64,000 bases of DNA from Gordius sp. MW1 (taxonomy: Eukaryota; Nematomorpha; Gordioida; Gordea; Gordiidae): NCBI GenBank assembly GCA_964036665.1, contig OZ038530.1, forward strand, positions 8,892,501 to 8,956,500. The letters run 5' to 3'. The notes below the pieces were generated by a model that did no database searches, was not told the DNA's origin, and was given only the letters and a program-made list of their open reading frames with translations. A program made the position numbers and the translations under genes. This document shows, in pieces, positions 363-61,596 of the stretch (the first letter of the stretch is position 1; the number at the start of each line of letters is the position of its first letter).

Positions 363-3300
363 TGTTGTAGTTGCTTACTACACGAGTATTTCCTTCCCCA
401 CCCTCATCTATCTCCACGATTAATTACGCATAGTAAGACCAGCTGCGCTGGCAAGGCAATTCCTTCACATTTTTTCTCTTTTGCTTTTTTCGCATGGAAT
501 TTATTTAATATTTTTTAAATATGATTGACGCGAATGTGACCGTCAATCGTTATCCGTCATTGTCCTTAATTGATCAGCTGGTATCTGACAGTGCGAAATA
601 GAGCGCCGAGAGTATGTGATTCCGATGCTGTGGAACGCTATTGCAGTTCTGGAAAATTCTGTCGATACCTGCTGGTGGACAAGATGACGCGGTGGTATTT
701 AACGTGTAGAACGAGGTTTCGGAAGTGCATGAGCGCACGTGTAACCCGGAAGCGAATTAATAACCCATTTCCGACGTTAATCGTCGGTACACTTTTGGGT
801 GTGGCGCCTACGGGTGCGGCGTCTACGGACGCGTTTAATTAATTCGGAGGCTTAATGCCTGTTATGACCTGTTTTTTTGGCTTAATGCCGTATCACCTTT
901 AATTAGGTTTGATGAGGTCGAGATTCCTGGGTGGCAAATATTTTGCCCTGTGCGCATGATTGATTGATTTTTTGGAGTTAATTACCTCGCATGTACGAAG
1001 GGAAGTTAATACCATCGTTGTCAGGTCCAAGATTACCGTTATGGAGTTCATAGCTCCCAGGTAATTATGGTTGGCGTAGTTGCATTTATGCGAGATACGC
1101 CTGTGACAGTTTTTTTAACTTAGTGATGTTGCTGGTGCCTATGTTGGCGCCGATAGCTGATAAGTGGTATAGCGACGTCACCAATATTTAACAGGAATAT
1201 CGTATGCTTTTGGTCGGAAGGCTAGCAGCTCTTATGGAGAAGCAGCCAGAACGACTTAGAGTGGCGAAGATGTTTCTGTCTCGCTCTATTGGGGAAAAAT
1301 CATCAAAAAACTACTGTGGGTTGCTTTAACGAAAATAATTGGGTGAAGTATCCCGAACCCAACGACGTCCAATACATTGACAAAAATTCCCTTCCCCCTA
1401 GCAAGCTTGAAGGGTATGGTTCGTTTAAATTTTATGGTCAACGACAAAACAAATCGAAAAGACGGAACCGGAAGACGAGTCTGAAAACGTTCAACAATAC
1501 AGTGCGATTCGTAAGTCCGAACAATGGACAGCGGTCAACAACTCAAATCCGACGACCGTGCTTAGAAGTCAACAATCGGGTCGGAGGAGGTTATCGTGAA
1601 GGGTATGGTGTTGTAGTTGCTTACTACACGAGTATTTCCTTACCCCACCCTCATCTATCTCCACGATTAATTACGCATAGTAAGACCAGCTGCGCTGGCA
1701 AGGCAATTATGCTTGAAGGAGCGTACAAGGCATTGATTCTGTGAACTCACACACACACACACACAAATCCCGTGTAACATCTGTGTACTAATTTCGATAT
1801 AGATTTATTTACGTGCGTGTTAGTCCCTCTCCCCCCATCGTTCTCTACGCGATTTATTTACGTGTAGGAATACATCACATGATACACAGCGAGTATTCCC
1901 ATCATTATTTACGCGTAGATATACATTTTCTTTTGTTCTTATAATAATTAAGATTCTTTCGAGTATTATCTTATTCCCCGATTCTTGGGCATCGTATATT
2001 TAAATAACGGATAAATGAATACTAAACGGAGATTTAAGGTAAGATTGAAAATCTCATTTAATAATAATGAATAATCATAAAATCTAAAAATTATAAAGAT
2101 TAATTCTTTTTTAACTTTGCTTATTACTGTAATGGAGTAGTATTCAAGGTAGCCTTTTTGAATACACGCGATTTTACTATACTTGAGCGCGGTCACAGAC
2201 ATTTGATTATAATCGTAGCCATTTGAATACACCTTAGTTTACACCGTACTTGGTATCTCTTATTTGATTATGTATGTCCTTCTTTATAATTATTACTCGC
2301 AGTTATCTATAAAAAGCAATTTTATATCATTTGAAGATAACCTACTATATTTCAATAATAGAATTATTATTCCTTCTGGTTTAAAGTCACAGGTTTTAAA
2401 TATACTACATAATGGGCACCCTGGGATTGGAGCGATGAAATCTTCAGGGAGATACTATGTATTTTGGACCAACATGGACAAGGATATAGAACAATTTGTA
2501 AATGGTTGCAATAATTGCCAAGAAGGTAGGCCTTTAACGAAAGAAGTACCAATGTCCAGCTGGAATATTCCCAACAAACCATGGGAAAGGATTCACATTG
2601 ATTTGGCGGGGCCAATATCAAATAATTATTGGCTGGTTTGCATTGATGCCCTCACTAAATGGCCTGAAGTTATGGTTATAAACCAAATCAACACATCTAA
2701 CATTATTTATAATCTACGAGTTTTATTTTGCAGATTTGGGCTTCCCCGTTATATAGTAAGTGACAATGGTCCTCAATTCACATCAGATGAATTTACAACT
2801 TTCTGCAAAAGAAATGGAATTCGACATTTTCGGGGCGCACCGTACCACCCTAGAACGAACGGCCTAGCAGAAAGATATATAAGGACCATAAAGAACAAAT
2901 TTTTTGCGGGAAGGAGACAAGGCCTAAACGATCGTGAAAATTTATTACAAGTTTTATTTAATATGCGAACGACGGTAAATACCACCACTGGTATTAGTCC
3001 GGGGGAAGGTATGTTCAATAGAAGACTTCGAACAACTCTTGACCAATTAAAATGGACACGGAAGGAGAAAATCAGTGATTCCGTTTGGAAACAAAAGTAT
3101 TACAGGAACCGGGGCCTGGAATACCGTGATTTTGCTCCAAATCAAAAAGTTTGGGTACAAAATGACAGATCTCCAGGTTGGAGAGAAGGTCAAGTCCTTA
3201 CGAAAAATAGTTACCTGACCTATGACGTACAATTGGGTGACAAAACTCAAGTAAAACACGCCGACCATATGAGAGTAGTCAAACGACCAGATCCAGCAGC

Positions 3301-3684
3301 GATTTCAGAAGACAACATACTTCCATACAAAAGAGTATCGGTTCCAACTGTCAGATACCCTCAAGGTTTCGCTTAAAGGGTGGAGTAGTGTAATGGAGTA
3401 GTATTCAAGGTAGCCTTTTTGAATACACGCGTTTTTACTATACTTGAGCGCGGTCACAGACATTTGATTATAATCGTAGCCATTTGAATACACCTTAGTT
3501 TACACCGTACTTGGTATCTCTTATTTGATTATGTATGTCCTTCTTTATAATTATTACTCGCAGTTATCTATAAAAAGCCGTGTTTATTTAATAAAAGAAT
3601 CTCTCTGTGCCTTTCTGTCTCTGTCTCCTGATTTAGTGTATGGTTTAGGACAATACCCCCGGCCACTTCGTTACAACTACAATA
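363..3684. mobile_element. Nested LTR-retroelement insertion defined by a paralogous empty site
   Basis: Present here but absent from the paralogous site at 18648-18656. The insert starts TGTTGTAGTTG and ends near CAACTACAATA. TAAC occurs on both sides (359-362 and 3685-3688), which fits a 4-bp target duplication. Inside are a ~100-bp direct repeat (363-461 and 1609-1708) that looks like the start of an LTR, and a second, younger LTR element from 2128. A purine-rich tract (about 1585-1608) sits just before the 1609 repeat, as a polypurine tract should. Short open frames at 570-842 and 1289-1744 lie between the repeats. The second has a basic, Gly/Arg-rich look but no recognisable domain. Confidence 0.65.
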
Positions 3685-23445: not shown

Positions 23446-23479
23446 ATTACCTTGATCTCTAATCGTAATTGAACTGGAT

Positions 23480-24943
23480 CATAAAGGGGGCGATAGGCTA
23501 ATGTACAAATTGGCCAAGATATGGAAGAAGCAAAGTCGCGATGTCGGAGTTCTTAAAATAGTCAAAAACAAGAAGGGTCAAACCTTATTCAAGCCGAAGG
23601 ATGTGATGGAAAAGTGGAAAGATATTTTAAGAACCTTATGAATATTGCAAATGTGAAGGCTTTCCTTCCCAAAATTGAGGCAAATATAAGTATGGTCGAA
23701 CTCTTTCAGGAAGATGAACTTAGGATACAAATGAACAAGATGCAAAAAGGAAAAGCAAATGGCCCAGATGGAATACCTATGGAAGCATTGCTCGGATGTC
23801 GTGAAGAAGGAGTCACCACTATGACGAACCTTCTTAACAAGATATTGGTAGAAGAGCGAATTCCTAATCAATGGAGAGCAAGCACTATTTTACCCTTATT
23901 TAAAGGTAAAGGAGACCCTCAAGATTGTGGCAATTACAGAGGTATCAAGCTAACTTGCCACTCATCAAGCTTATGGAAAGAATCTTAGTAAAAAGGCTGA
24001 AAAACTAGGTGGAAATATCGGCTAACCAATTTGGATTTGTGGCCGGCAAATTCACACCCAATCTTCGCACTAAGGCAAATGATGGATAAGTATGGTGAAA
24101 TGAGGAAAGACCTACATATGGTCCTTATCGACTTGGAGAAAGCCTATGACACGGTCCCCCGAAATTTAATATGGTGGTGCCTGAGAAACAAAATATCCCT
24201 GACGCATATGTACGGCTTACGAAAAATATTTATGAATCCTCAAACTCTTGTAGGACGACAGTTGGAGACTCTAAATCTTTTCGTAAAATTGGATTACATC
24301 AAGGATCTGCTTTAAGTCCCTTTTTATTAATTTTTAATATAATTATCGACACGATAACGTAGGACATTCAAAAGTCATCGCCATGGTGTATGCTGTGTGC
24401 CGATGATATAGTACTATGCGAAGAAACAAGGAAAAAATTATTCGAAGAAGCCGAAAGTGGTCAAAGCGCTTAGCTGGATATGGTTTAAAGGTCAACAATC
24501 GAAAAGCGGTATACATGGAAATGAACGGTACAGGCAGCCCATCGCTGGATGACCATCTAAAGTACACAAAAATAGACGGGTTTATAAACCTCGGCTCGAT
24601 GCTAAATCAAGAGGGAGGTTGAGTAACGGAAACCAATGCCCGCACCCAAAAAGGATGGCTTAAATTGCGAAGTATATCCGGTGTAATGTGCGACAAGAAA
24701 ATGCCAATATGGTTGAAGAGCAAAGCTTACAAATCCACCATAAGACCGGTGTTACTCTATGGATATCAAACATGGGCATTAAACACCATGGAAGGAAAGC
24801 TATTACAAGCCACAGAGATGAGAATGAGACGGTGGAGCTTGGGGTATACTAAGCCCGACCATATGACGAATGACTTTCTCATGACAAAAATGGGTATTCA
24901 ACCTATGGCGGACATTAGCATTGGAATTAGAGGAGCACAATAA
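23480..24943 (+). pseudogene. RTE-like non-LTR retrotransposon, reverse transcriptase remnant
   Basis: Frame fragments follow the order of an RTE/'craniofacial development protein 2-like' LINE. QTLFKPKDVM comes first, then GKANGPDGIPMEALLG, then WRASTILPLFKGKGDP with NYRGIKL. Next are HMVLIDLEKAYDTVPR (RT motif A), GLHQGSALSP, and the catalytic CADDIVLC (24398-24421). The C-terminal SKAYKSTIRPVLLYGYQTWA precedes the zinc/endonuclease-distal tail. Several frame breaks occur, and the endonuclease domain is missing (5' truncated). Confidence 0.9.
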
Positions 24944-24960
24944 TGATTTAGGGAGGGGCT

Positions 24961-25373
24961 CTGATTATTATCGATAAACCCTGAATTCATTTACTTATTT
25001 CTAATATAATAAAACAAAATAATTATTACTACCATAATTATGAGGGTTAGCCACCATAAGAATGGGTTTAAATCTAATTTGAGCATTATATATACCTATC
25101 TCGCTTACTGTATGTCTAGAAAATAACTATGGCATACTGATGAGCTCTAATAAGAGCGAAAACGTTATATGTCTGTTATCATTTTCCAAGTCACATGCTA
25201 AAAAAGATAGGGATATATATAGTTCAAATTAGTCTCTAATTAAAATCGCCGATAGATGGCGCTAATTAGGGTAAACTTTTAAGTTAATTGCGGCACTCCT
25301 GAAAGGGGTTATTATTATCTTCTGATTATTATCGATAAACCCGCAATTCATTTACTTATTTCTAATATAATAA
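24961..25373. repeat. 361-bp unit bounded by 52-bp direct repeats, holds a hammerhead-like motif
   Basis: The stretch CTGATTATTATCGATAAACC and the following bases (24961-25012) recur at 25322-25373, giving a 361-bp period. Between them lies a hammerhead-like sequence (25119-25187). One unit plus a partial second copy is the layout seen for metazoan retrozymes and for the pseudo-LTRs of Penelope-like elements. It sits next to MITE-derived sequence (24914-24960). Confidence 0.75.
25119..25187 (+). ncRNA. Predicted type I hammerhead ribozyme
   Basis: The core CTGATGA (25137-25143) is followed by a perfect 4-bp stem II (GCTC, 25144-25147; GAGC, 25154-25157; loop TAATAA) and GAAA (25158-25161). 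AACGTT (25161-25166) gives a self-complementary 3-bp helix III ending in U-A, so cleavage is predicted after A25167. TATGTC (25168-25173) pairs with GGCATA (25131-25136) as stem I. After an internal loop (TAT/T), GTTAT (25175-25179) pairs with ATAAC (25123-25127), and the pairing continues with GAAAAT/ATTTTC. All core nucleotides are present. Such short helix III forms are known to act best as dimers. Self-cleavage is inferred, not shown. Confidence 0.8.
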
Positions 25374-25892
25374 CTAATATGTTTTACACTAAATGCAAAT
25401 TTTTTAGGCATATTTATGTAATAATTATATAGTAGTCAATGTTTTAAATTTGTTTTAGTAAAAATACTTTGTGATCACATTTAAATAATAAATCTCTTAT
25501 TCTCATGTTTATTTCATAATCACGAGAAGAGTAAGTCGCTTTTGATTTTTTTAAAATTTTTGATCATGGGGGACAGGTTGCATTTATTCAGTTTTTAATA
25601 TATTTATTAACTAACCAAATATTTTAAAAAATTTGTGAGAGTGAGGTTTGCTTCGAAAATCCTGCCCTCCGCCCGATAAAGAAACTCCAACAGTGTTGCT
25701 TTTCTAATGTCATGCTCTTGAAACAAGTTTCTAATCATAAATATTTGCAATTAGCTTATTTTTGACTTAATATCTATTTAAAAACTTTATTATTACCACA
25801 TAAATCTCTAAAATATGCTCTTCTATCCAAGATTATGTTTTTATTGTGTATTAGAAAAAAGGAGGAACTTTGAAAATTAAAAACGGTATTCA

Positions 25893-26010
25893 TGGGCGTA
25901 GCCAGCATTGGAATTAGAGGAGCACAATAATGATTTAGGGAGGGGCAAACCATAAATTTAAGAAATTTACAATTTTTATATTTAGAGGGGGCAGCCGCCC
26001 GTCTCTGCTG
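25893..26010. mobile_element. Truncated GGCGTAGCCAG-family MITE
   Basis: Left terminus CATGGGCGTAGCCAGCATTG followed by the usual interior. The right end is lost near 26010. Another left half lies at 26399-26465, and an interior piece at 24914-24957. Confidence 0.65.
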
Positions 26011-27096
26011 AGGTCAAGAAAAGTAAAGGCAATGACATAATATTAAGTGTTATGGCTTCGCCGGTTTCCGACTTGCCAGCCGAGTGACGCGTATTCCTGG
26101 CCGTCACTGTGGGTTCAGGAGTTAAGGATTGTCAGTTTCATCTCCGGCAGGATCTGTCATTGAGGCAGTTCCTATGTAGTAAAAATTAGTAATTTATTGA
26201 ATATAAGGGAATTAGGTAAATTTATTGAAGCGTTGTTAAATAAGGGGATAAAAAAATATCTGTTCATAGGGGATAGCATGCAGGCTTATTAATATATGAA
26301 GTAATTTTAGTCCCTGTATTCTTCAATCAAACCCCCCCCCCCCCCACCCCTTCTTTAAAAACCAAGTGGTGTTCAAAAAATTTGGATTATCCTAGTTAGC
26401 ATGTGCGTAGCCAGCATTGGAATTACAGGGGGGCAATAATGATATTTTTTTGTTTCATATTGGAATGATATGAGCTCTTTTGTCTCTGATAATAATCTCT
26501 TGCTTTGTATGTCTTGCGCCAGTTGTTATTATCCCTTGAGTCCTTTACGTTACTCTTCTTTATTATATTTTTCTTTATATTTCCTTTGTCCACAGCTTAC
26601 TATTATCCAGCATCTGGTAATTACCCCGTGCCTCTGGTTGCTGGTCTTCAAAGACACTTTCCCCAAAACTCATATATATGACATATATGACAGGTCAAAC
26701 CTTATTCAAGCCGAAGGAAGTTATGGATAGGTGAAAAAGATATTTAGAAACTTATGAATTTTGCAGATGACAAAGATTCCCTTTCCACTATTGAGCCAAA
26801 CATAAGTCTGGTCGAACAATTTCAAGAGGATGGGATAGAACACAAATAAACAAGATGCTAAAAGGAAAAGCTAATAAACAGATGAAATACCTATGGAAGC
26901 ATTGCTCGGATGCTGTGAAGAAGGAATTACGACTATGTTGAACCTCTTTAACGATATTGGTAGAAGAGGGAATTTATAATCAATGGAGAGCAAGCACGAT
27001 TGTACCCTTATTTAAAGGCAAAGGAGACCCTCAGGATTTTAGTAATCACAGAGGTATAAGTTCCACTCTTTGAAGCCTATAGGATCTTAGTAACTG

Positions 27097-29134: not shown

Positions 29135-29700
29135 TAAGGCTGAAAAACAAGGTGAAAATATTGGAGGCAAATCCACAATCGACTCAATTTTCGCACTAAG
29201 ACATATGATGGATATGATATCTACATATGGTCTTTATCGACTTGGAGAAAGCTTATGACACGGTCCCTCGTGATTTAATATGGTGGTGCTTGAGAAAACA
29301 AAATATCCCCGACGCATATATACGGCTTATGAAAAATATTTATAAAGCCTCGCGTAGGACTAAAGTTGAAGACTCTAAACCTTTTCGGGTTGAAATTAGA
29401 TTACATCAAGTAGCTGCTTTAAGTCCTTTTAAATTAATATAATTATGGACACAATAACAAGAGACATTCAAAAGCCATTGCTATAAAGTATGCTATATGC
29501 CGATGATATAGTACTATGCGATTAGATAAAAGAAAAAGTATTAGAAGAAGTCGAAATATGGTCAAAGCGTTTAGCTGGTTAGAGGTCAACGAAAAACGGT
29601 ATTCATGTAAATGAACGTTACAAACTTCCCATCACTGAATGACCATCTGAAGTACCCAAAGTAGACAAATTTGCATAATTCGGCGTAATTTGTTCAAGTC

Positions 29701-48225: not shown

Positions 48226-50282
48226 ATATATCAAACGCTTTGTTCAAAAACATATTATTTGGAAGAGAAAAATGAGACTTTTCAACATTAAATGTAATGT
48301 GTGGTAAGTTGCTTTGGGGGCCGACGATCACAAGTGTTCAATTTGAATAAAATTTTAAGATGTTGAAGTTCAAACTTTTAAAACTATCAAATTATTTTTA
48401 ATAAACTAATTTAGCTTAGTGCGTCCTCACACATTAAGGTTGGATAAAAGGGGTCAAAAAGTGTAGTCATAATTTTAGAAATAATGTTTCCAAAATAATC
48501 TTACCCAAAATGGATGGAAAAAACATTTATTTTTCATCATTGATTACAAATATTTATTTTGGCATTTATAATATGCATACACCATTTTAATTTATTACCT
48601 CTCAATTCTGTTGTATTAATTTATTTGATATAAGGATTCTCTGATTATTTCAAAACTCAACTTGCTTAATAAAAATTTCATTTATAACTGTTAAGTTAAC
48701 AAAAGTTATATACAAACTTTTGTATATTACAAGTGAAAACTTTTGTATATTACAAGTGAAAAATAATGATCATTCTAATATATCGCGTAAAGGCAATGGG
48801 GACTACTGAAATCTATATCGAAATTAGTACACAGATGTTAATGCGGGATCAAAAGGGGTATCCGACCTAAATAAGATACGAACTTGCAATTAAAGTATCT
48901 AGATAGAAGGGGGGAGGGGGTATGAGATACGCAAGTTTACAACTCTTGTGAATATAAGTACGGAGAGGGGGTGATCGATTATCAACGCGTGTGTATTGTA
49001 TAGCAGCGCAGTAGGGGGTGGGGGGATTTGTATAGGAAGTTAGTATATGATAATTTCTATAGGAGGAGATGTTTGTATATGATAATTTCTATAGGGGGAG
49101 ATGTTTGTATATGATAATTTCTATAGGGGAGGACACAACACCTTCCCCTTTACAAAGAAAAATATCTGTTGTAGTCTGGAAAGTGATTTTGTTTAATACT
49201 GGACGTTGAAAAGTGGTATGGTTTGATACTGGATGTGTGATGGTTGACAGATTATATGTGACCATCCCTTGGTTTAGATTGAGAGGAACGTTTTCACTAG
49301 GCAACGCATAGATAAGATACTAATAGATCTGTGGGCTAAAGTTTTGATTTCTAGATGTTTTACTATAAGGCTGAGGCATAGTTTATGTTGAGATTTTTTT
49401 TGTATATTTTTCTGACTTCGTGTCTGAATTTTATAGATTTAATGTTTTCTTCAAATCATTGGGATTGGTTTATAAATATTTTAATAATGTATATGGTTTT
49501 GAAGAATAGGGCCAGGGGTAGAGATATATGTAGACAAATAATTGCTATAATGAAATTAAAGGGTTTTTATCAACTAGGTTTTTGTTTTGGGGTTACAATA
49601 TTCAAATATATACTTATAGCAAAAATATGATCTGCCGAAAATGTTAGACAACTAAACACTATTCAGGATTTTCTGATTTTGGGAATTGGATATTTTTTAT
49701 GTTTTTGTGTATTATCTTCTTGCGATTGTTGATTTAAATTTGTTTATTCAATCAGAGCAGCCTGGTGTGCTAGCTGTAAAGGTGAGGTGGAAAATTTCAG
49801 TTTGGAAGGTTTTGAGAGGAAGGATGTGCCAAAGTGGGGTTTGGGGACGTTAGTTCTAAGGATTACATCGATCTGTGATACATATGCAAGGATAGGTCGT
49901 TCTTGGCAACGAGGTTTCTTGATTCGAGCTGACTTCAAAAATAATAGGGGGGGGGGGGGGGTCTTTTTTTTTTTATTGGTAGAATTTTTTCATATGTTCG
50001 GAGGTGAAGAGCCAAGATATTGTCATTGTTTCCTTTTCATCGCCAAAATTCATATTGTATTCGTTGTCATAATGTGAGGTATTGAACGATCTGATTTACA
50101 ATTTAGTAATGGCTTGGCAATCTTGGTTGAGGAGCGCACTCGCAATCGTCACGTGATTTGAATTTTGTCAAGTTTTTTCGAAAAGGTAGGAGTTTCGATG
50201 TACCAAATACAAAGTTAAAATAATAATTAAAATAGTACCCATACAATCTCAATTGTTCGTGTGCCTTTAACATACATACGTA

Positions 50283-53200
50283 TTAGGGCTCACACAATTT
50301 TAATTGCTCAGTGTGTCTTATTTCATTATTATCACTTTGTTTATCTTTAATTTTAAAAATTTTAGAACCGACCTGTTGTACAATCTCACCCAAAAGCCAT
50401 TTAGGTTTACCCAAATAGTTTCTATACCACACCTTTTGGTTAAGCGGAAACTTTGGTCTACCTACCATTGGCAATTGTTGATAATCATCAACATTTAAAA
50501 AATCTGGCGGGTATCTTAATTTACGATTTAAAAATTCGTAGCTAACCGCAGGACGATCAGGATATCTTGGAGACATGTTATGATATAGTTTATATAACCA
50601 TGTTCCTTCCTTCGTCACTTTAGCCAAATTTAACCATTTCTTTACGATTCCTACATACCTTTCTACCTGCCCATTTGAGCTAGGATGATATGGGGGAGTT
50701 AACCAATGATTTATTTTATATTTCAAACAGAATTGTTTAAATTCTACGCTTACGAAAGCTTTGCCATTATCAGTAACGATAATTTCAGGAAAACCATAAG
50801 CGCCAATTAATTCTTGCAAAATATTTATAGTTACTTTACTCGTTATTTGAGAAACGTTTTTAAATTCCGTCCACCCTGAAAAGGCGTCAACGATCAAAAT
50901 AAAACGTTTTTTATCAAACTCGAAAAAGTCTATATGAATACGACTCCACGGTCCTTTTGGACGTGGCCAAGTCGCGCCTTTATCTTTTCGCGGCATAGCT
51001 GCGTTAACTTTACACAATTCGCAAAGCCTAACCAAAGCATTAATATCCTTTGTAATTTTAGGCCACCATACGTAATCTCGTGCAATTTGTTTCATTTTAA
51101 CGATTCCAAAATGGCTTGCATGCAACAGTTCTAATACTTGTTTCCTAAGCCCAATTGGTATGACCAATTTTCCTTGTCTTTTAATTGCACCTTCGTCAAC
51201 ATAAAGTTCATTAAACACGTGCTTAAAAGGTATAGGAATTTGTGCGAATTCGTCCGATCCTGACAAAATACTTTTAATTAAACTTAAATCGGGATCGTCG
51301 TTAACGGATTCTACTATTTGTTTAAAATCGATTATGTTTATACTATTAACTACATGTCCACCAACAATATCGCAACTCAAAGATGTATCCATAACCTCCG
51401 TTGTGTCTGCGCCCAAACGCGACATTACGTCGGCCAAATGGTTTTCATCTCCTTTAAGATATTTTAAGGTTAAAGTGAAATTACCTAAAGTTAATAGCCA
51501 TCTTTGCAACCTGGGTGACATTAAAAAATCGGTGTTAGTTTTCATAAACAAAGAGACCAATGGTTTGTGATCTGTATAAACGATGAACGATTTTCCGATT
51601 AAATATTCTCTACATCGTTTCAGGCCATAAACCATTGCTAACGCCTCTTTCTCTATTACCGAATAATTTAATTCAGGTTTAGTTAATTTACGGGAAAAAT
51701 AAATTACAGGGTGTTCTACGCTGCCTTCTAATTGGCATAATGCGCCACCAATTCCCTGATTAGATGCATCAACCCTTAAAACGTTTTCGCCGTCCGGATC
51801 AAAACATTTTAATATAGGTTGTTTTAAAAGAACTTGTTTTAAATAATTATAACATGTTTCATGCTCATCAGTCCAATTATATATGCTATTTACGCCAGTT
51901 AAATCATACAATGGGGCTGCATATTTACTATAATCACTGATAAACCTGTTATAATAAGTCATTAATCCCAAAAATGACGACAGTTCTTTTTTATTAAGAG
52001 GTATTCTCGCATTTTGGATAGCATATATCTTAGTAAGATTTGGTCTAACACAACCGTCTCCTAATATATACCCTAAATACATAACCTTTTCTACAGCAAA
52101 TACGCATTTCTTTTCAGCAATACGTAACCCTTTTGCTTTAATTAATTTTAACACAGCTATTAGACGCATGTCATGTTCGTCCCTAGTGGAACCAGTGATC
52201 AAGATATCGTCCAAATAAAAATTTATGCCTTCTAAATTCAAAAAAATTGAGGCCATTGTTCTTTGAAAAATTGCCGCCGACACACTTAGACCGAAAGGTA
52301 AACGTTTAAAAGCAAATAAACCCTTTTCGGTATTAATGGTCAATAGTTTAGCGGATTTACTAGTTACGCGCAATTGCAGATAGGCATTAGCCAAATCAAT
52401 TTTTGAAAAAAATTTTGCGCCTTTTAAATTTGCTAACACCATTTCAATTCTGGGGAGGGGATATTTTACATCCACAACACATTTATTGATTGTTATTCGG
52501 TAATCCGCACACACCCTTATCGTTCCATCTGGTTTTTTAACCGGAACTAAAGGTGTTGCCCAATCCGAATAATCAACCGGCTCGATTACATCATCTTTTA
52601 ACCAAGTGTTAATAACCTGTTCAACTTGGTCTTTCCATACTAGTGGAATGCGCCGGGCTGGGCAAAAACGTGGAGCGCCTTGATCTTTAATTTTAATTGA
52701 GAATATGTTATCATTTAGACATCCTAATTCGTTCGCAAAAATCTCTTCAAACTCTGCTTTAATTTTGTCAATTTTGTCGCGCCATAGATCATTATCGTTC
52801 CGAACATCCCTACGATCCATTTTAAATGAGGAATTCTCGGCATTTTTATATGCCTTTACCTCCATACACGAGGAACTAGTCTCATTATTTGAAACCTTGC
52901 CCTCGTCTGAAAATAAGGAGACTCCTGCTACCTTACCAATTATGGTCGTAGGCTCAGACCCGACTTTATCTACAGCTTTATTATCACCAATATTATCCTT
53001 ATTGCAGTGCACAAAATTAATTTTATTATATTTACATATTCCCCAATAATTAACTAAGGGACCAATCTTTCTTATCCATGTCCATCCCATTATATTCTCA
53101 ATATTTTCATCAACAATATATATATCAAATTCTAAACTCTGCCCCGCGGCGTTCACATTCACTTTCGTATAACCTAAGATGTTAATCGGACAGCCATTTA

Positions 53201-53411
53201 ATTGTTTTGCTAAAATGCTAGTTTTTTTTAATAATTTTTCAGGCCAATATTTTTTAAAATTTATTTGCGAAATCAGCGAAATTGTAGAGCCCGTATCGGC
53301 TAAAAATGTTATATAATTATTATCGATATTTACTGTAACATAAGGCGAACGCGCGTTAAAAAAATTAATTAAATTTACATTTGAGAAACTAGTACCAGCC
53401 TTCGCTAACCG
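50283..53411 (-). CDS. Ty3/gypsy Pol polyprotein (PR-RT-RH-IN)
   Basis: The open frame continues from the codon after the gag UGA (53411) to the stop at 50283, 1042 aa. Order: aspartic protease (FLADTGST, about residues 36-43), then reverse transcriptase with the linker QGAPRFCPARRIPL, LPFGLSVS and the catalytic FYLDDIL. RNase H follows with RVDASNQGIGGAL and VYTDHKPL. Integrase comes last, with an HHCC zinc module (HASHFG, CELCK) and the D,D,E core (HIDFFEF, VTDNGKAF, NGQVERYV). This is chromovirus-less gypsy order with no chromodomain seen at the C-terminus. There is no stop or frameshift in the body, so the element may still be active. Expression must cross the UGA at 53412-53414. Confidence 0.95.
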   Translation of the reverse strand, partial: RLAKAGTSFSNVNLINFFNARSPYVTVNIDNNYITFLADTGSTISLISQINFKKYWPEKLLKKTSILAKQLNGCPINILGYTKVNVNAAGQSLEFDIYIVDENIENIMGWTWIRKIGPLVNYWGICKYNKINFVHCNKDNIGDNKAVDKVGSEPTTIIGKVAGVSLFSDEGKVSNNETSSSCMEVKAYKNAENSSFKMDRRDVRNDNDLWRDKIDKIKAEFEEIFANELGCLNDNIFSIKIKDQGAPRFCPARRIPLVWKDQVEQVINTWLKDDVIEPVDYSDWATPLVPVKKPDGTIRVCADYRITINKCVVDVKYPLPRIEMVLANLKGAKFFSKIDLANAYLQLRVTSKSAKLLTINTEKGLFAFKRLPFGLSVSAAIFQRTMASIFLNLEGINFYLDDILITGSTRDEHDMRLIAVLKLIKAKGLRIAEKKCVFAVEKVMYLGYILGDGCVRPNLTKIYAIQNARIPLNKKELSSFLGLMTYYNRFISDYSKYAAPLYDLTGVNSIYNWTDEHETCYNYLKQVLLKQPILKCFDPDGENVLRVDASNQGIGGALCQLEGSVEHPVIYFSRKLTKPELNYSVIEKEALAMVYGLKRCREYLIGKSFIVYTDHKPLVSLFMKTNTDFLMSPRLQRWLLTLGNFTLTLKYLKGDENHLADVMSRLGADTTEVMDTSLSCDIVGGHVVNSINIIDFKQIVESVNDDPDLSLIKSILSGSDEFAQIPIPFKHVFNELYVDEGAIKRQGKLVIPIGLRKQVLELLHASHFGIVKMKQIARDYVWWPKITKDINALVRLCELCKVNAAMPRKDKGATWPRPKGPWSRIHIDFFEFDKKRFILIVDAFSGWTEFKNVSQITSKVTINILQELIGAYGFPEIIVTDNGKAFVSVEFKQFCLKYKINHWLTPPYHPSSNGQVERYVGIVKKWLNLAKVTKEGTWLYKLYHNMSPRYPDRPAVSYEFLNRKLRYPPDFLNVDDYQQLPMVGRPKFPLNQKVWYRNYLGKPKWLLGEIVQQVGSKIFKIKDKQSDNNEIRHTEQLKLCEP

Positions 53412-53414
53412 TCA
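53409..53414 (-). promoter_or_regulatory. Candidate UGA-CGG readthrough site between gag and pol
   Basis: Gag and pol are in the same frame. The single stop is UGA followed by CGG (complement of 53414-53409). UGA-CGG is a known leaky context in some RNA viruses, where a downstream RNA structure helps. Whether a structure follows here was not tested. The alternative is a simple nonsense mutation in this copy. Confidence 0.5.
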
Positions 53415-53921
53415 ATCAGAACAATGTTGGCCACCACAATGACCCATTGAACTATGACTGACCTGAGGCAGACTGGTCCTACAACCTGAACATATGTCAG
53501 CCTTAGTCTCCTCTTTATTTGTAGTATTGCTTAAACAACACCTCCTATTGCCTGGCCATTCCCTCTGCGCACGCGCGGGCGAATTTTCATTAAAATCAAA
53601 ATTGTAAGGGGTGTAGGGGGTGCGGGGTCCCCTATTAAATGGGCTGGTATAATTATTGTTATTATTAAATCTGTTATTATTAAATCCCTTTCCCTTTAAT
53701 AGAAAACAGTTTTTCTTTACATGCCCCGTTTTGTTACAGAAAAAACAAGTGGGTAATGAGGGGGTATTTTTAACTAAAAATATTTTTTCAACTTTTCTCA
53801 ATTTTATATAAATCATTATGCACAATAAAATTAAGAATACGATAAATAGTATAATAAAAGCTTTATCGCTAAGTAAACAATTATAAAAATGAATAAATAT
53901 TGATGGATTGCGATTGAACAT
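53412..53921 (-). CDS. Short Gag-like protein with a membrane segment and zinc knuckle
   Basis: 169 aa from ATG at 53921. The N-terminal third has a strong hydrophobic segment (IILFIVFLILLCIMIYI, about residues 23-39), unusual for Gag. A classical CCHC knuckle follows (CFFCNKTGHVKKNC, C-x2-C-x4-H-x4-C), then an Asn-rich, Pro/Arg-rich stretch. No capsid domain is visible and there is no room for one between the 5' LTR and this start in the same frame. The frame ends at a UGA directly followed by CGG and stays open into pol. Confidence 0.8.
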   Translation of the reverse strand: MFNRNPSIFIHFYNCLLSDKAFIILFIVFLILLCIMIYIKLRKVEKIFLVKNTPSLPTCFFCNKTGHVKKNCFLLKGKGFNNNRFNNNNNYTSPFNRGPRTPYTPYNFDFNENSPARAQREWPGNRRCCLSNTTNKEETKADICSGCRTSLPQVSHSSMGHCGGQHCSD

Positions 53922-54848
53922 TTTAATTAATATAATATATTTATATAGTCGCTAATAAAATTTTGATTAAGAAAATACGGAAACTTTGAAATGTTAAGCT
54001 AATATAGAATACTAAGATAATAATTATTATGATTAATGAAAGTAATTGCATTTTATACTTACGTGTTCCCGAATATTTTTTTTAAATAACCTTTCTTTGG
54101 AGAGGGGGAGAACGCCTTTCGTCCAACTGCCTGTTTACGGTATTCGTCTTCCCCACGTATATGATTTTAACTTCCGTTTTTACGATATGTTTTTGGCTTT
54201 TCTTTCTGTATTGTTACCACGAATGGCTTAGGCTCAAGGACGATTCCTTTTGTCCTTTGCAACAATTAGGTAATAATTTGCTTGTTGTTTCACTCCAGTG
54301 ATAATAAAATCGTAAGAATCTGATTTATCCTATTCACAGGAAGGAGAAATAATTTATTCAAAATATTTTTTAAACAATTTAACTGCGGTGGGGGGTGGGA
54401 ATTTTTGGTTCTGACACCACTTTTGTATATTACAAGTGAAAACTTTTGTATATTACAAGTGAAAAATAATGATCATTCTAATATATCGCGTAAAGGCAAT
54501 GGGGACTACTGAAATCTATATCGAAATTAGTACACAGATGTTAATGCGGGATCAAAAGGGGTATCCGACCTAAATAAGATACGAACTTGCAATTAAAGTA
54601 TCTAGATAGAAGGGGGGAGGGGGTATGAGATACGCAAGTTTACAACTCTTGTGAATATAAGTACGGAGAGGGGGTGATCGATTATCAACGCGTGTGTATT
54701 GTATAGCAGCGCAGTAGGGGGTGGGGGGATTTGTATAGGAAGTTAGTATATGATAATTTCTATAGGAGGAGATGTTTGTATATGATAATTTCTATAGGGG
54801 GAGATGTTTGTATATGATAATTTCTATAGGGGAGGACACAACACAAAC

Positions 54849-57606: not shown

Positions 57607-60600
57607 ATGGAATATCTTATGGTAAGCATAATTTTATATTTAGCTAAATATTTAAGCTTATTTCATGGTATTTATATTAAACTTTGATAGATCTGATATC
57701 CTTTTCTTAGTTACCAATTTCACTTGATAAATACTATGTTCTGCTAGTTTTATAGTTAGTATAAGGATGCCTGATTAAATCTTAATCTCTATCTTATTGT
57801 ACATTGTTTAAGCTTTGTACCTTAAGTAAGCTAATGCTCTATTTGTTGAAAGTATACAAAACAATAATGTATAGTACCCTAATCTGTCAAGGTAGGGTTT
57901 TAGTTTGTAATTTTTAGATAGATTTGATCTGACACCTTATATTATATTTTAAATTGTCTCAAATTACAACTAAACTTTCTGCTTAAGATAATACACTTAT
58001 ACTTTAGATTGACATTTTATAAATCTCAATCATATTTCTACTATTAGTTATCATTTTTTAAATGGTTTATTTTTCAATGAAATTTTGTTAACACTAATAA
58101 AATTATCTAGTAATTTTTAAGCTTTAAAGTAAAAATTTAACCTATATAATTATGTCATGGGATAGAATGTTTTGACTTATTTGTATATTATTAATCTACT
58201 ATAAAAATTTGTTACGACTTTTTTGTTGATGATTGTGTAAGCAATAGCTGTATTTAAAGGTTTAACTCCACAAATTAAGGTGCTCAGTATTATTAAAATA
58301 AATTTGTTCTATTAATTTGTATAAGAACTTTATTGTTTTTGAGACACATTAAATAATTATGTCAAGGTATGATATGGTCTAGAGCATAATTTAAAAGTTT
58401 TACCTATATAACAAAGATAAATAAATATACAGGATAAAAACATCTTTTAAAATAAAGTTAACTTGCACTTAAGACTAGAAGCTCAAATAACAGTATTTTA
58501 TTATAATACAATTGACCTAAAAAGGTTCTCTATTGTTTATAAACAAATATAAATTACTGATTCACTAATAAATATAAATCTTAAGTTTACATTTAATAAT
58601 TTTTATAATGACAGACCTAACCTATGTTAGTCCAAATAAGAGGAAATTATTACTAAAAAGTGTATATAGTTTTGAGCATTGTTTATAAATCCAATTTTGC
58701 AATGCTTTCTAAAAATGCTAAGTATTTAATATAAATAAATATTTATCATATTACCTTTGATAAATCTTAAAAAATGTTTTAGTTTGCCAAAATTTTTGAG
58801 TTTGTATTCAAATATGTTGTATTTAACTATAAATCTGTGGGAATATTTTTAACAGAATTAAATTGAAGGGGACATTCTAAGTTTATTCATTAACTTTTTT
58901 GCCCTCTTGATTATGTTTAAATCTGGTGTATGTCTAATAACTACTCATTAAATTCACCAATCAGTGTTTAGAATTTAAGTTTTGGACACATGTCCACAGC
59001 TTGTCACAACATGTAATGCCTTTTAAATTTAAAGAAATTAAGTATAAACCCCAAGTTATATGATATTTTTGCCTAAAGATTAAACCTAAAACCTAATTTT
59101 ATTGGGTGTAGTTATCTTATGTCTTAGATTTTCAGAATTAATTGTTATATTCATCATACTTTGTGCAAAGGAAAAAAATTGTGCAATTAGTAGTAATTTT
59201 ATTACATATATGTATGTTAGATTAACCTTATTTATGCAGGTAACCCTTTTACAAACTCATACTATTTACAAAATTTTCGATTTAATATCTATGGTTAGGA
59301 AAATGACCATCCATGAGTTTTACTTTTCGTCGAAATTAATGTTAAGCATGACTTAATATCGTTGTCACCTTGACCTTTGACTGCCCCGTTGAAATTAACA
59401 ATCTGAACAGGCTAAAATGTGCATGTTAGTTGCCACACGCACTCCACGTTTTTTAAAATGTACATCAAGTTAGGGGAAATATTACCGTATATTTTGTTTA
59501 ATTCACCCTCTACTAATTAAAAATTTTACGATGGTTGAACAAATAACACGCGTGTACATAATTTGTTAATCATTTATAATTGTTTCCAAGCCTAACAAAA
59601 TTAATTTCATTGTGCTGCTGAGGTTATTCTCAATTATATTGGGGAGGGGGGACAATTGGGGTATTCGGGTTGAATTTAAATAATTTTTATCACTCTGATT
59701 TGCTTCTATAACGTTAATATATTTCGTTACACATACTCAGATATTCGCTTGAAAGAAAGCTTCGATATCATCATCCCACGTTCTTGCTTTGTTCTAGCAT
59801 TACATTACCATGATGGATAAAAAGACGAAACGCGCCCACTTAGGGAATCACTCCTCCACAGGCTCCGTTGCCCCCACACTCACCCCCACTCCCAATAACG
59901 CCGCCCCTAACTTTCTCCCTGGCGCCACCTCCACCACTCCCCTTTACCATCACCACCCCTACGCCCATCACCCTCACGCCAACCCGGGTGCGGCCGCCGG
60001 CATTTTTCTAGCCGCCGGACCCGGCTCAGGCCCCGGCAATCATCTTAACTTAGGACCCGCCACCTTGCTTGCCTATAATATGCCCTCGCCCTACTATCCC
60101 TCCGGGGCCGCGGCGGCTGCCGCCCACCTCATAGGCCAACCTTTCGGATTGGGCGCCGTAAGTGCCACCCTCCTCCCCAACAACTCCTCCGTCATGACTT
60201 CTTTCACCGCCCCCCGCCTAGCCACCCCTCAACATTCGGCCCTCTACCATTTCCCACCCAACGCCGCCACCGCCCCGTTTCCCATCTACAATCCTCCTCC
60301 CAATTATAAATCCATCACACCCGTCGCCACCATTCCTTTTGCTCCCTCTTCTTACGCCGGCGACATGCCCTCCTCCGGCCTCCAAAACAATGGTCTCCCC
60401 CCTCCGGCCTCCACCACAACCACCCCAAATCAGGATGTCAACTCCGTTGCGTTTGGGACGGAAGACGTGTCCGGCGGATACGGGGCCCGCGGGAAGCAAG
60501 TCAACGGCAACGCTGCCGGTTCTACTCCCCCCAACATCTCTAATAATCTTCCCAACGCGTACTACCAACAGCAGCAGGTTAATCAGCAACAACATAACGT

Positions 60601-61596
60601 CGGACCGCTCACCGGTGCTAACAATATAGCGGCTGGCTATCATCACCACCAACAACAATACACCTCGGGCCCATTACCCGGCTCTCAACCTATTATGATG
60701 TCCGTGGCTATGTTAAACGGTGCGGTTGGTGGCAATTTAGTTAGCCAACAATCGTCACCCAGTGCCTTCGTCGGGGCTGGTGTATCTTCGTCACCCATGA
60801 TCGCCAACAACGGATCGCTGATTTACAACACCAACAACAATAATCCATTTGTCACGGGCCCTTACGCGACCACGAACGGACCCGGTGCTTTACGACAAGG
60901 GATAGCTCGCAATAATGGTAACGGCGGCAACAATCAAATGGACATTATGGTGGGCAGCATGATGGCCGCCGCTTCTACCTACAACAACAACCAGCATCAT
61001 ACCAAAAAGCATCCCAACAACGCACCCGTGGCTAATTACTATTACATAAATGAGCCTCTGGGTGGCGGCGCAGCTACGAGTTACGTCCCCGTTTCTCACA
61101 CCCCGGCCTACAACCTAACTACGCCACCGCTTGCCGCTGCTGCTGCCGCCGCCGCGTTAAAATACGCACCGACCGCCACCTCCGACTCTCAGGCGTCTTT
61201 GGGAATTGGGGAAACCTTGGCGCTGGTAAATGCGCCGTTGCCCCCGACTTCCTACATTTTGCAAGATATCCTTAATTTACTCCCTGACATTGGTGTACCA
61301 GAGTTTGTAAGATCCAATATTGTTAAAACAAATGATCAACTCTTAGTACTCTATTTGGCCGCCATGATAAGATCTATTTTAGCTCTTAACAATTTGATTA
61401 ACAACCAAATTACAAATAGGTAACTAAACCCAATTCTTTCTTTTATTAAAAAATTTATTTTCAAAGGGATGAAGAGAAAAAAGAAATTAAGAAAGATGAA
61501 GTTAAGGATATTAAAGTCAAGGGTGACATTAAGACTGAAAGCTTGATTATCAAAGAGATCAATGGAACAGAAGATAAAACATCCAAGAATCCTTGA
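57607..61596 (+). CDS. Low-complexity protein fused in frame to PSMD7 C-terminal exons
   Basis: Main exon 59798-61419, then 61467-61596. A candidate first exon 57607-57621 (MEYLM, donor GTAAGC) joins in frame to an acceptor (TTGTTCTAG) at 59797. Without it, translation could start at 59810 (ACCATGATGG). The first ~480 residues are rich in Asn, Ala, Pro, Gly, His and Gln (poly-Ala, HH and QQQQ runs), GC-rich, with no domain I recognise. A nuclear or RNA-associated protein is one guess. At 61253 the frame passes without break into the PSMD7 duplicate (YILQD...), the same intron, and the same stop. The fusion protein would be 579 aa from 59810. It would carry only the last ~97 residues of Rpn8, lacking the MPN domain. 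The gene's own 3' exons are not in the window. Confidence 0.65.
57622..59797. other. Probable intron 1 of the fusion gene
   Basis: AT-rich 2.2 kb with no other supported exon. The frame at 59102-59356 is not convincing. It ends in a pyrimidine-rich acceptor at 59784-59797. Confidence 0.45.

Follow-up and report, generated by a model that had tools for sequence, protein, structure and literature searches.

The window analysed here comprises 64,000 nucleotides of the Gordius sp. MW1 genome (assembly GCA_964036665.1, contig OZ038530.1, positions 8,892,501 to 8,956,500 of the forward strand), and a hammerhead ribozyme lies within it inside a short repeat unit, among the traces of several other elements. 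LINE-like reverse transcriptase remnants, related to one another, broken and 78-81% alike, are found at 23461-24916, 26693-27093 and 29166-29660. A Gypsy-like pol gene with protease, reverse transcriptase, RNase H and integrase occupies 50286-53951 on the minus strand, adjoined by a zinc-knuckle frame, and a second integrase fragment lies at 2219-3373 on the plus strand. The stretches 48714-49131 and 54419-54834, about 5.7 kb apart, flank the Gypsy-like genes and have a pair of 23-bp and 32-bp tandem repeats in common; they are perhaps the LTRs of this element. At 59810-61420 there is an open frame of 537 amino acids with a MitMem_reg domain near its end, for which a homologue search returned no protein at E <= 0.001.

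The ribozyme-bearing unit, hereafter U, is 361 bp long (24960-25320, plus strand), as delimited by the spacing of direct repeats and by its relatives throughout the genome. It is followed directly by the first 53 bp of a second copy (25321-25373, plus strand), which is 96% identical to 24960-25012 over 53 nt at a spacing of 361. An earlier note on this DNA had described 52-bp direct repeats flanking the ribozyme; these are present, although they span 53 nt and had been placed one base too far in. The repeat is best read as a tail left by reverse transcription that started within the next unit, rather than as a flanking LTR. U is non-coding, with a GC content of 0.302 and a longest stop-free stretch of 49 amino acids in the tripled unit. 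It does not encode a reverse transcriptase with GIY-YIG endonuclease: protein comparison detected no match to a Penelope protein in the window or in 69 fetched loci (two of which, L001 and L031, correspond to the window's own location), in agreement with the earlier remark that no Penelope coding is visible nearby. To the extent that sequence can show it, the proposal of a non-autonomous 361-bp unit is likewise supported.

Adjoining U but outside the element is a separate dispersed repeat, B (25374-25903), which has copies of its own without U. A 43-bp stretch at 24917-24959 recurs unchanged at 25904-25946, flanking U and B together, with a third copy (67%) at 26413-26455. We considered this repeat as the target duplication of a 944-bp insert and ruled it out, because the second copy extends leftward into GGCGTAGCC, letters that also precede the repeat at 26413, and because B is a repeat in its own right.

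The type I hammerhead spans 25119-25187 on the plus strand, like all of its parts, and is identified by its letters, a low Rfam score, conserved genomic copies and the energy of its fixed structure. The letters of the core (CTGATGA, 25137-25143, and GAA, 25158-25160), a perfect stem II and a two-armed stem I are as the earlier note had described them. Stem II (25144-25157), seen in both letters and fold, pairs GCTC with GAGC (25144-25147 and 25154-25157) around the loop TAATAA, while the fold pairs the outer arm of stem I, GAAAAT (25119-25124), with 25181-25186, and the inner arm, GGCATA (25131-25136), with TATGTC (25168-25173). On the 3' side of GAA come the palindrome AACGTT (25161-25166), then A25167, then the TATGTC that pairs with GGCATA before the core. 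The elements of a type I hammerhead (CUGANGA...GAAA, stems I-III and NUH before the cut) are therefore all found, with helix III forming only between two copies, each AACGTT pairing with the same stretch in the other. The ribozyme sits in a long imperfect hairpin (25074-25232, plus strand) whose arms are 72% complementary; this 159-nt region folds at -46.9 kcal/mol (z -6.2), with 0 of 200 shuffles equally low, and the 75-nt hammerhead core alone gives a weaker signal (z -2.2; 7 of 200 shuffles equally low).

A loose hammerhead pattern in the 64 kb is not significant by itself (1 found, against a shuffle mean of 4.2), and Rfam returned no match in the window at the gathering score. In E-value mode, the Hammerhead_HH9 model (RF02275) matched 25116-25195 at 27.5 bits (E 1.9e-4; cut-off 52); across the genome it gave five matches, none above the cut-off, and RF00163 gave none, though its control produced no signal either. 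The covariance-model check that had been proposed thus yielded a sub-threshold score, which is insufficient to refute the ribozyme, since such a score was to count only jointly with a failure of cleavage, and since conserved copies, whose lack was the other ground named for rejection, are abundant. As judged from its letters and their conservation, the hammerhead at 25119-25187 is real and conserved, and the RNA of the element probably cuts itself by means of it.

Two registers can be drawn for the cut. In the register of the earlier note, helix III forms between two molecules and nucleotide 17 is A25167, with the predicted cut on its 3' side; in an HH9-like register, helix III is closed and the cut follows C25173. 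Genome-wide, the palindromic form, AATAAGAGCGAAAACGTTATATGTC, occurs at 532 places with at most two mismatches, whereas a form one A shorter occurs at 13, three of which (with two mismatches) resemble other variants. Among 41 distinct hammerhead segments from the fetched loci, AACGTT is kept in 34, and all six pairs of inner stem I are kept in 26 (23, 2 and 1 by row), or 28 when two single G-U variants are included; variation in stem I is too small for covariation to be claimed in so young a family. As fixed monomer structures, the two registers have energies of -11.1 kcal/mol (earlier register) and -0.2 kcal/mol (HH9-like). We rejected the HH9-like register, because copies with the extra A predominate and the energies are unfavourable, and adopted the dimer model with its cut after 25167, which on these counts, segments and energies fits best. 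The suggestion that a palindromic helix III favours dimers accordingly holds at the level of sequence. Folding of the dimer counts against this model: in the prediction it reaches -26.7, compared with -31.2 for two separate monomers and -36.4 for a free cofold, both of which are more stable. In the lowest-energy predicted folds of both monomer and circle, the hammerhead core is paired away; the predicted circle fold has an energy of -77.2 kcal/mol (z -3.4), with 0 of 100 shuffles equally low, and such pairing of the core could protect a circle.

The whole genome, 211.8 Mb in 12 contigs, was searched. A 25-base core pattern was found at 652 places with at most three mismatches (361 + 291) and its reversed control at none. 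A whole-genome query with the 944-bp stretch, for which 40 of 1302 candidates were scored, yielded 70 matches. Copies of U are mostly 91-95% alike, and its subfamilies resemble each other chiefly around the hammerhead. Tandem copies, which the earlier note had proposed to look for, are present: a 26-kb array on contig C1 (7848318-7874078) contains 56 exact core matches among 100 listed places, with steps of about 341-375 bp where consecutive (as in L064), and complete units abut with nothing between them in L005 and L007. U thus shares with metazoan non-LTR retrozymes a low GC content, the lack of a coding frame and short tandem repeats (about 150-450 bp) that carry a type I hammerhead. The size of the C1 array, together with the sub-threshold Rfam score, would also suit an inert satellite, or a decayed repeat, in which the hammerhead has lost its function. 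We regard this as highly improbable, given that the hammerhead is kept in 532 places, that copies are so alike, and that dispersed copies have fixed ends and share target strings.

These ends were examined in 22 rows from L001-L029, representing 21 insertions if both halves of L003 are one; L008, L013 and L024 were left out as duplicates of places already read, L014, L019, L022, L023, L027 and L030 contain only the B repeat, and L011 and L015, which have both flanks in common, may be one event. Boundaries were set and then refined by alignment. When outward 3' ends were read automatically, 28 of 31 fell at two points about 41-43 nt apart: 15 at U5-13, the short point (U10, equivalent to 25330 on the plus strand in the window), and 13 at U47-55, the long point (U53, where the partial second copy in the window ends). 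The other three lie at U256 (L002), U19 (L007) and U29 (L010), and the left end of L018 is a long end on direct reading. In two-ended insertions both outer ends are 3' ends, and none has two 5' ends outside. Ten such insertions were scored; the broken-sided L002 was left out, and L003 was included despite the 567 bp that separate its halves. A long end is paired with a short one in nine of the ten, and L012 has two short ends.

The flanks of these insertions share strings of 12-14 nt in seven of the ten cases (8 nt in L017, 6 nt in L016 and 5 nt in L012), compared with a mean of 5.2 and a maximum of 9 in 90 cross pairs. Twelve letters inside each aligned end were tolerated. Some of the shared letters may belong to the AT-rich ends of the element itself, so that 12-14 nt should be taken as a maximum; under stricter criteria the strings measured 7-10 nt in six insertions. 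In a second subfamily, four head-to-head pairs share 14, 10, 14 and 7 nt (12 cross pairs, 6-8 nt). Among the listed hammerhead places, neighbours within 2 kb are head-to-head in five cases, tail-to-tail in none and on the same strand in one (5 versus 0, sign test, P 0.06). The window copy itself has a shared flank of 1 nt only and no inverted partner, and its anatomy is read from its relatives. The short point of U lies inside a predicted hairpin (25280-25354) and the long point on the 3' side of it; the hairpin is moderate (25280-25373, z -2.1, with 4 of 200 shuffles equally low). Head-to-head copies, a 3' tail on one side and a short target duplication, all seen in the relatives of U, constitute an anatomy of Penelope type.

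We compared U with Penelope elements of the same genome, in which the GIY-YIG domain has 118 matches; neighbours within 6 kb are head-to-head in 18 cases, tail-to-tail in none and on the same strand in 16. One Penelope group forms tandem arrays with steps of about 2957 bp and an 854-aa frame (GIY-YIG E 1.1e-5), whose protein has 292 relatives, the best of those listed at 27-38% identity. Near-identical head-to-tail copies at this spacing make up clusters at C8:28243223-28278770 and C5:441847-462440, both of which switch strand midway, and many of the copies have an open frame of about 870 aa. A second, young Penelope family is found at L069-L085 with the exception of L073, which falls outside it, leaving 16 loci out of 17. 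It too has two 3' end points, about 32-33 nt apart, with one long and one short end in eight of eight pairs (from 11 loci) and a single end at five loci. Targets share 12-13 nt in eight of eight, against at most 8 nt in 56 cross pairs; the short point again lies within a predicted hairpin, which the long point follows on its 3' side, and for both families shorter or longer cuts of the hairpin region lose significance (z 0.0 and -1.0). Shared targets are AT-rich for U and for the Penelope family (86% and 83%), compared with 66.5% for the window. Pooled over U and the Penelope family, the long-plus-short arrangement occurs in 17 of 18 cases (sign test, P 1.4e-4). In this test, as in that on neighbouring hammerhead places, the copies are not strictly independent.

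In addition, a hammerhead-like motif, CCGAAGATGTCC ... GGACGAAA, occurs in 15 of the 16 young Penelope loci, about 65-95 nt before the short point. It is minimal at L075:1880-1925 and in 14 sister loci, L075 having C for U4 and an extra base before stem II. A hammerhead-like motif that keeps CTGAAGA also precedes the tail on the minus strand of L088, from 3576. Rfam did not recognise the Penelope motif in the two loci tested and gave nothing convincing in four Penelope loci, and no strong sequence match between U and the Penelope families was found in L066-L085.

Copies of U and the Penelope retrotransposons of this genome carry insertion scars of one type. This points to the enzyme behind the movement of U and bears on two further explanations. 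A LINE-type enzyme might have done so, the head-to-head copies arising by L1-like twin priming. Twin priming is known for L1 and yields inverted copies, as seen here, and a LINE-like remnant lies directly upstream of U (23461-24916); in LINE twin priming, however, the second cDNA starts at varying places, whereas the outer ends of U stop at two fixed points, as do those of the GIY-YIG family, and we judge this explanation very unlikely. Alternatively, U might be no independent unit but just the pseudo-LTR that an autonomous Penelope element, whether extant or extinct, has left behind. In its ends, its orientation and its target strings U matches Penelope elements, Penelope pseudo-LTRs are described as carrying hammerheads (PMC7761336, accessible text), and our comparison covered part of the genome's Penelope copies. 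Yet complete units adjoin one another without a gap in L005 and L007, an array of dozens of exact cores exists, no Penelope protein was found in the 69 loci, and the 44 hammerhead places listed for C1 and C2, a sample of the 652, are all more than 6 kb away from the 118 GIY-YIG places; this reading is unlikely. Where the earlier note had offered a retrozyme or a Penelope pseudo-LTR, then, the choice falls on a retrozyme-type unit whose insertion ends are of Penelope type.

We thus propose, with a probability of roughly 0.7, that the element in the window is a copy of a non-autonomous, metazoan-type non-LTR retrozyme moved by Penelope (GIY-YIG) machinery, given that tandem and head-to-head copies, two fixed 3' points and short target duplications are found both in U and in one of the genome's GIY-YIG Penelope families. 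The scar would tie U to this machinery more directly than co-existence does, the tie being anatomical. Tandem copies would be transcribed, and two hammerheads would pair through the palindrome AACGUU and cleave 3' of 25167, after which the 361-nt RNA would be closed into a circle. In the circle, a lone hammerhead would be unable to form helix III, and its core, according to the predicted fold, would be engaged in other pairs; the circle would persist as a result. The Penelope protein would then cleave both target strands and begin reverse transcription within the RNA, one strand priming at the long point and the other at the short point. Copying may make more than one turn of the circle, and the cDNAs from the two strands would meet head-to-head. 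We also lean, somewhat less firmly, towards a general form of this proposal, in which animal retrozymes are parasites of Penelope: two-start, two-strand priming by the GIY-YIG enzyme would serve both coding and hammerhead-only copies, the latter from circular templates, and an open palindromic helix III would cut multimers and spare the circle.

Animal retrozymes were defined in 2020, with expression and circles demonstrated, and Penelope was put forward as a strong candidate partner on the grounds that both have type I hammerheads and tandem copies and that they co-occur (Cervera and de la Pena, PMC7229834, accessible text); this candidacy is repeated in passages of PMC7761336, and the accessible text of PMC8490949 adds nothing decisive. 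The enzyme that copies animal retrozymes was an open question in 2020. With a readable scar, the question becomes accessible to direct biochemical testing, and retrozymes elsewhere can be matched to Penelope families by rule. Among the titles and abstracts listed, with subscription literature mostly outside this scope, there is no report of such a scar in retrozymes.

Among known systems, U shares stem II and the core letters with HH9, whose helix III is closed and whose register is shifted at helix III and stem I. With the plant LTR retrozymes, U has in common that it is non-autonomous and carries a hammerhead, but theirs is of type III, and they possess LTRs, PBS, PPT and 4-bp duplications (PMC7229834, in part). 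U resembles Penelope-like elements in its head-to-head and tandem copies, in a tail on one 3' end, in short AT-rich target duplications and in a start within a stem-loop (passages of PMC3846280 and PMC11167929); it differs in lacking a reverse transcriptase or GIY-YIG frame and in having a hammerhead with full stem I and loop II. In Penelope itself, one of the inverted pLTRs bears a tail some 31 bp long, the duplication measures 9 bp and most copies are arranged head-to-head (PMC3846280, accessible text); reverse transcription begins within the RNA, both strands are cut and extended, and the tail lies between the two start sites (PMC11167929, accessible text). The same text of PMC11167929 reports that the start site did not differ between strands in vitro, something that the long-plus-short pattern seen here does not explain, and reports that hammerhead cleavage is unnecessary for insertion of a lizard Penelope element in vitro, which counts against our model. 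The closest likeness is to the metazoan non-LTR retrozymes of PMC7229834, as far as its accessible text describes them: a type I hammerhead, non-coding tandem units of 150-450 bp, low GC, a patchy, multi-copy distribution with Penelope elements in the same genome and, as in axolotl, a weak or palindromic helix III that favours dimers; U differs from them in that its helix III is an open 6-nt palindrome. The element is ordinary in kind, a retrozyme-type unit, and what it adds is an insertion scar that can be compared with those of coding Penelope copies.
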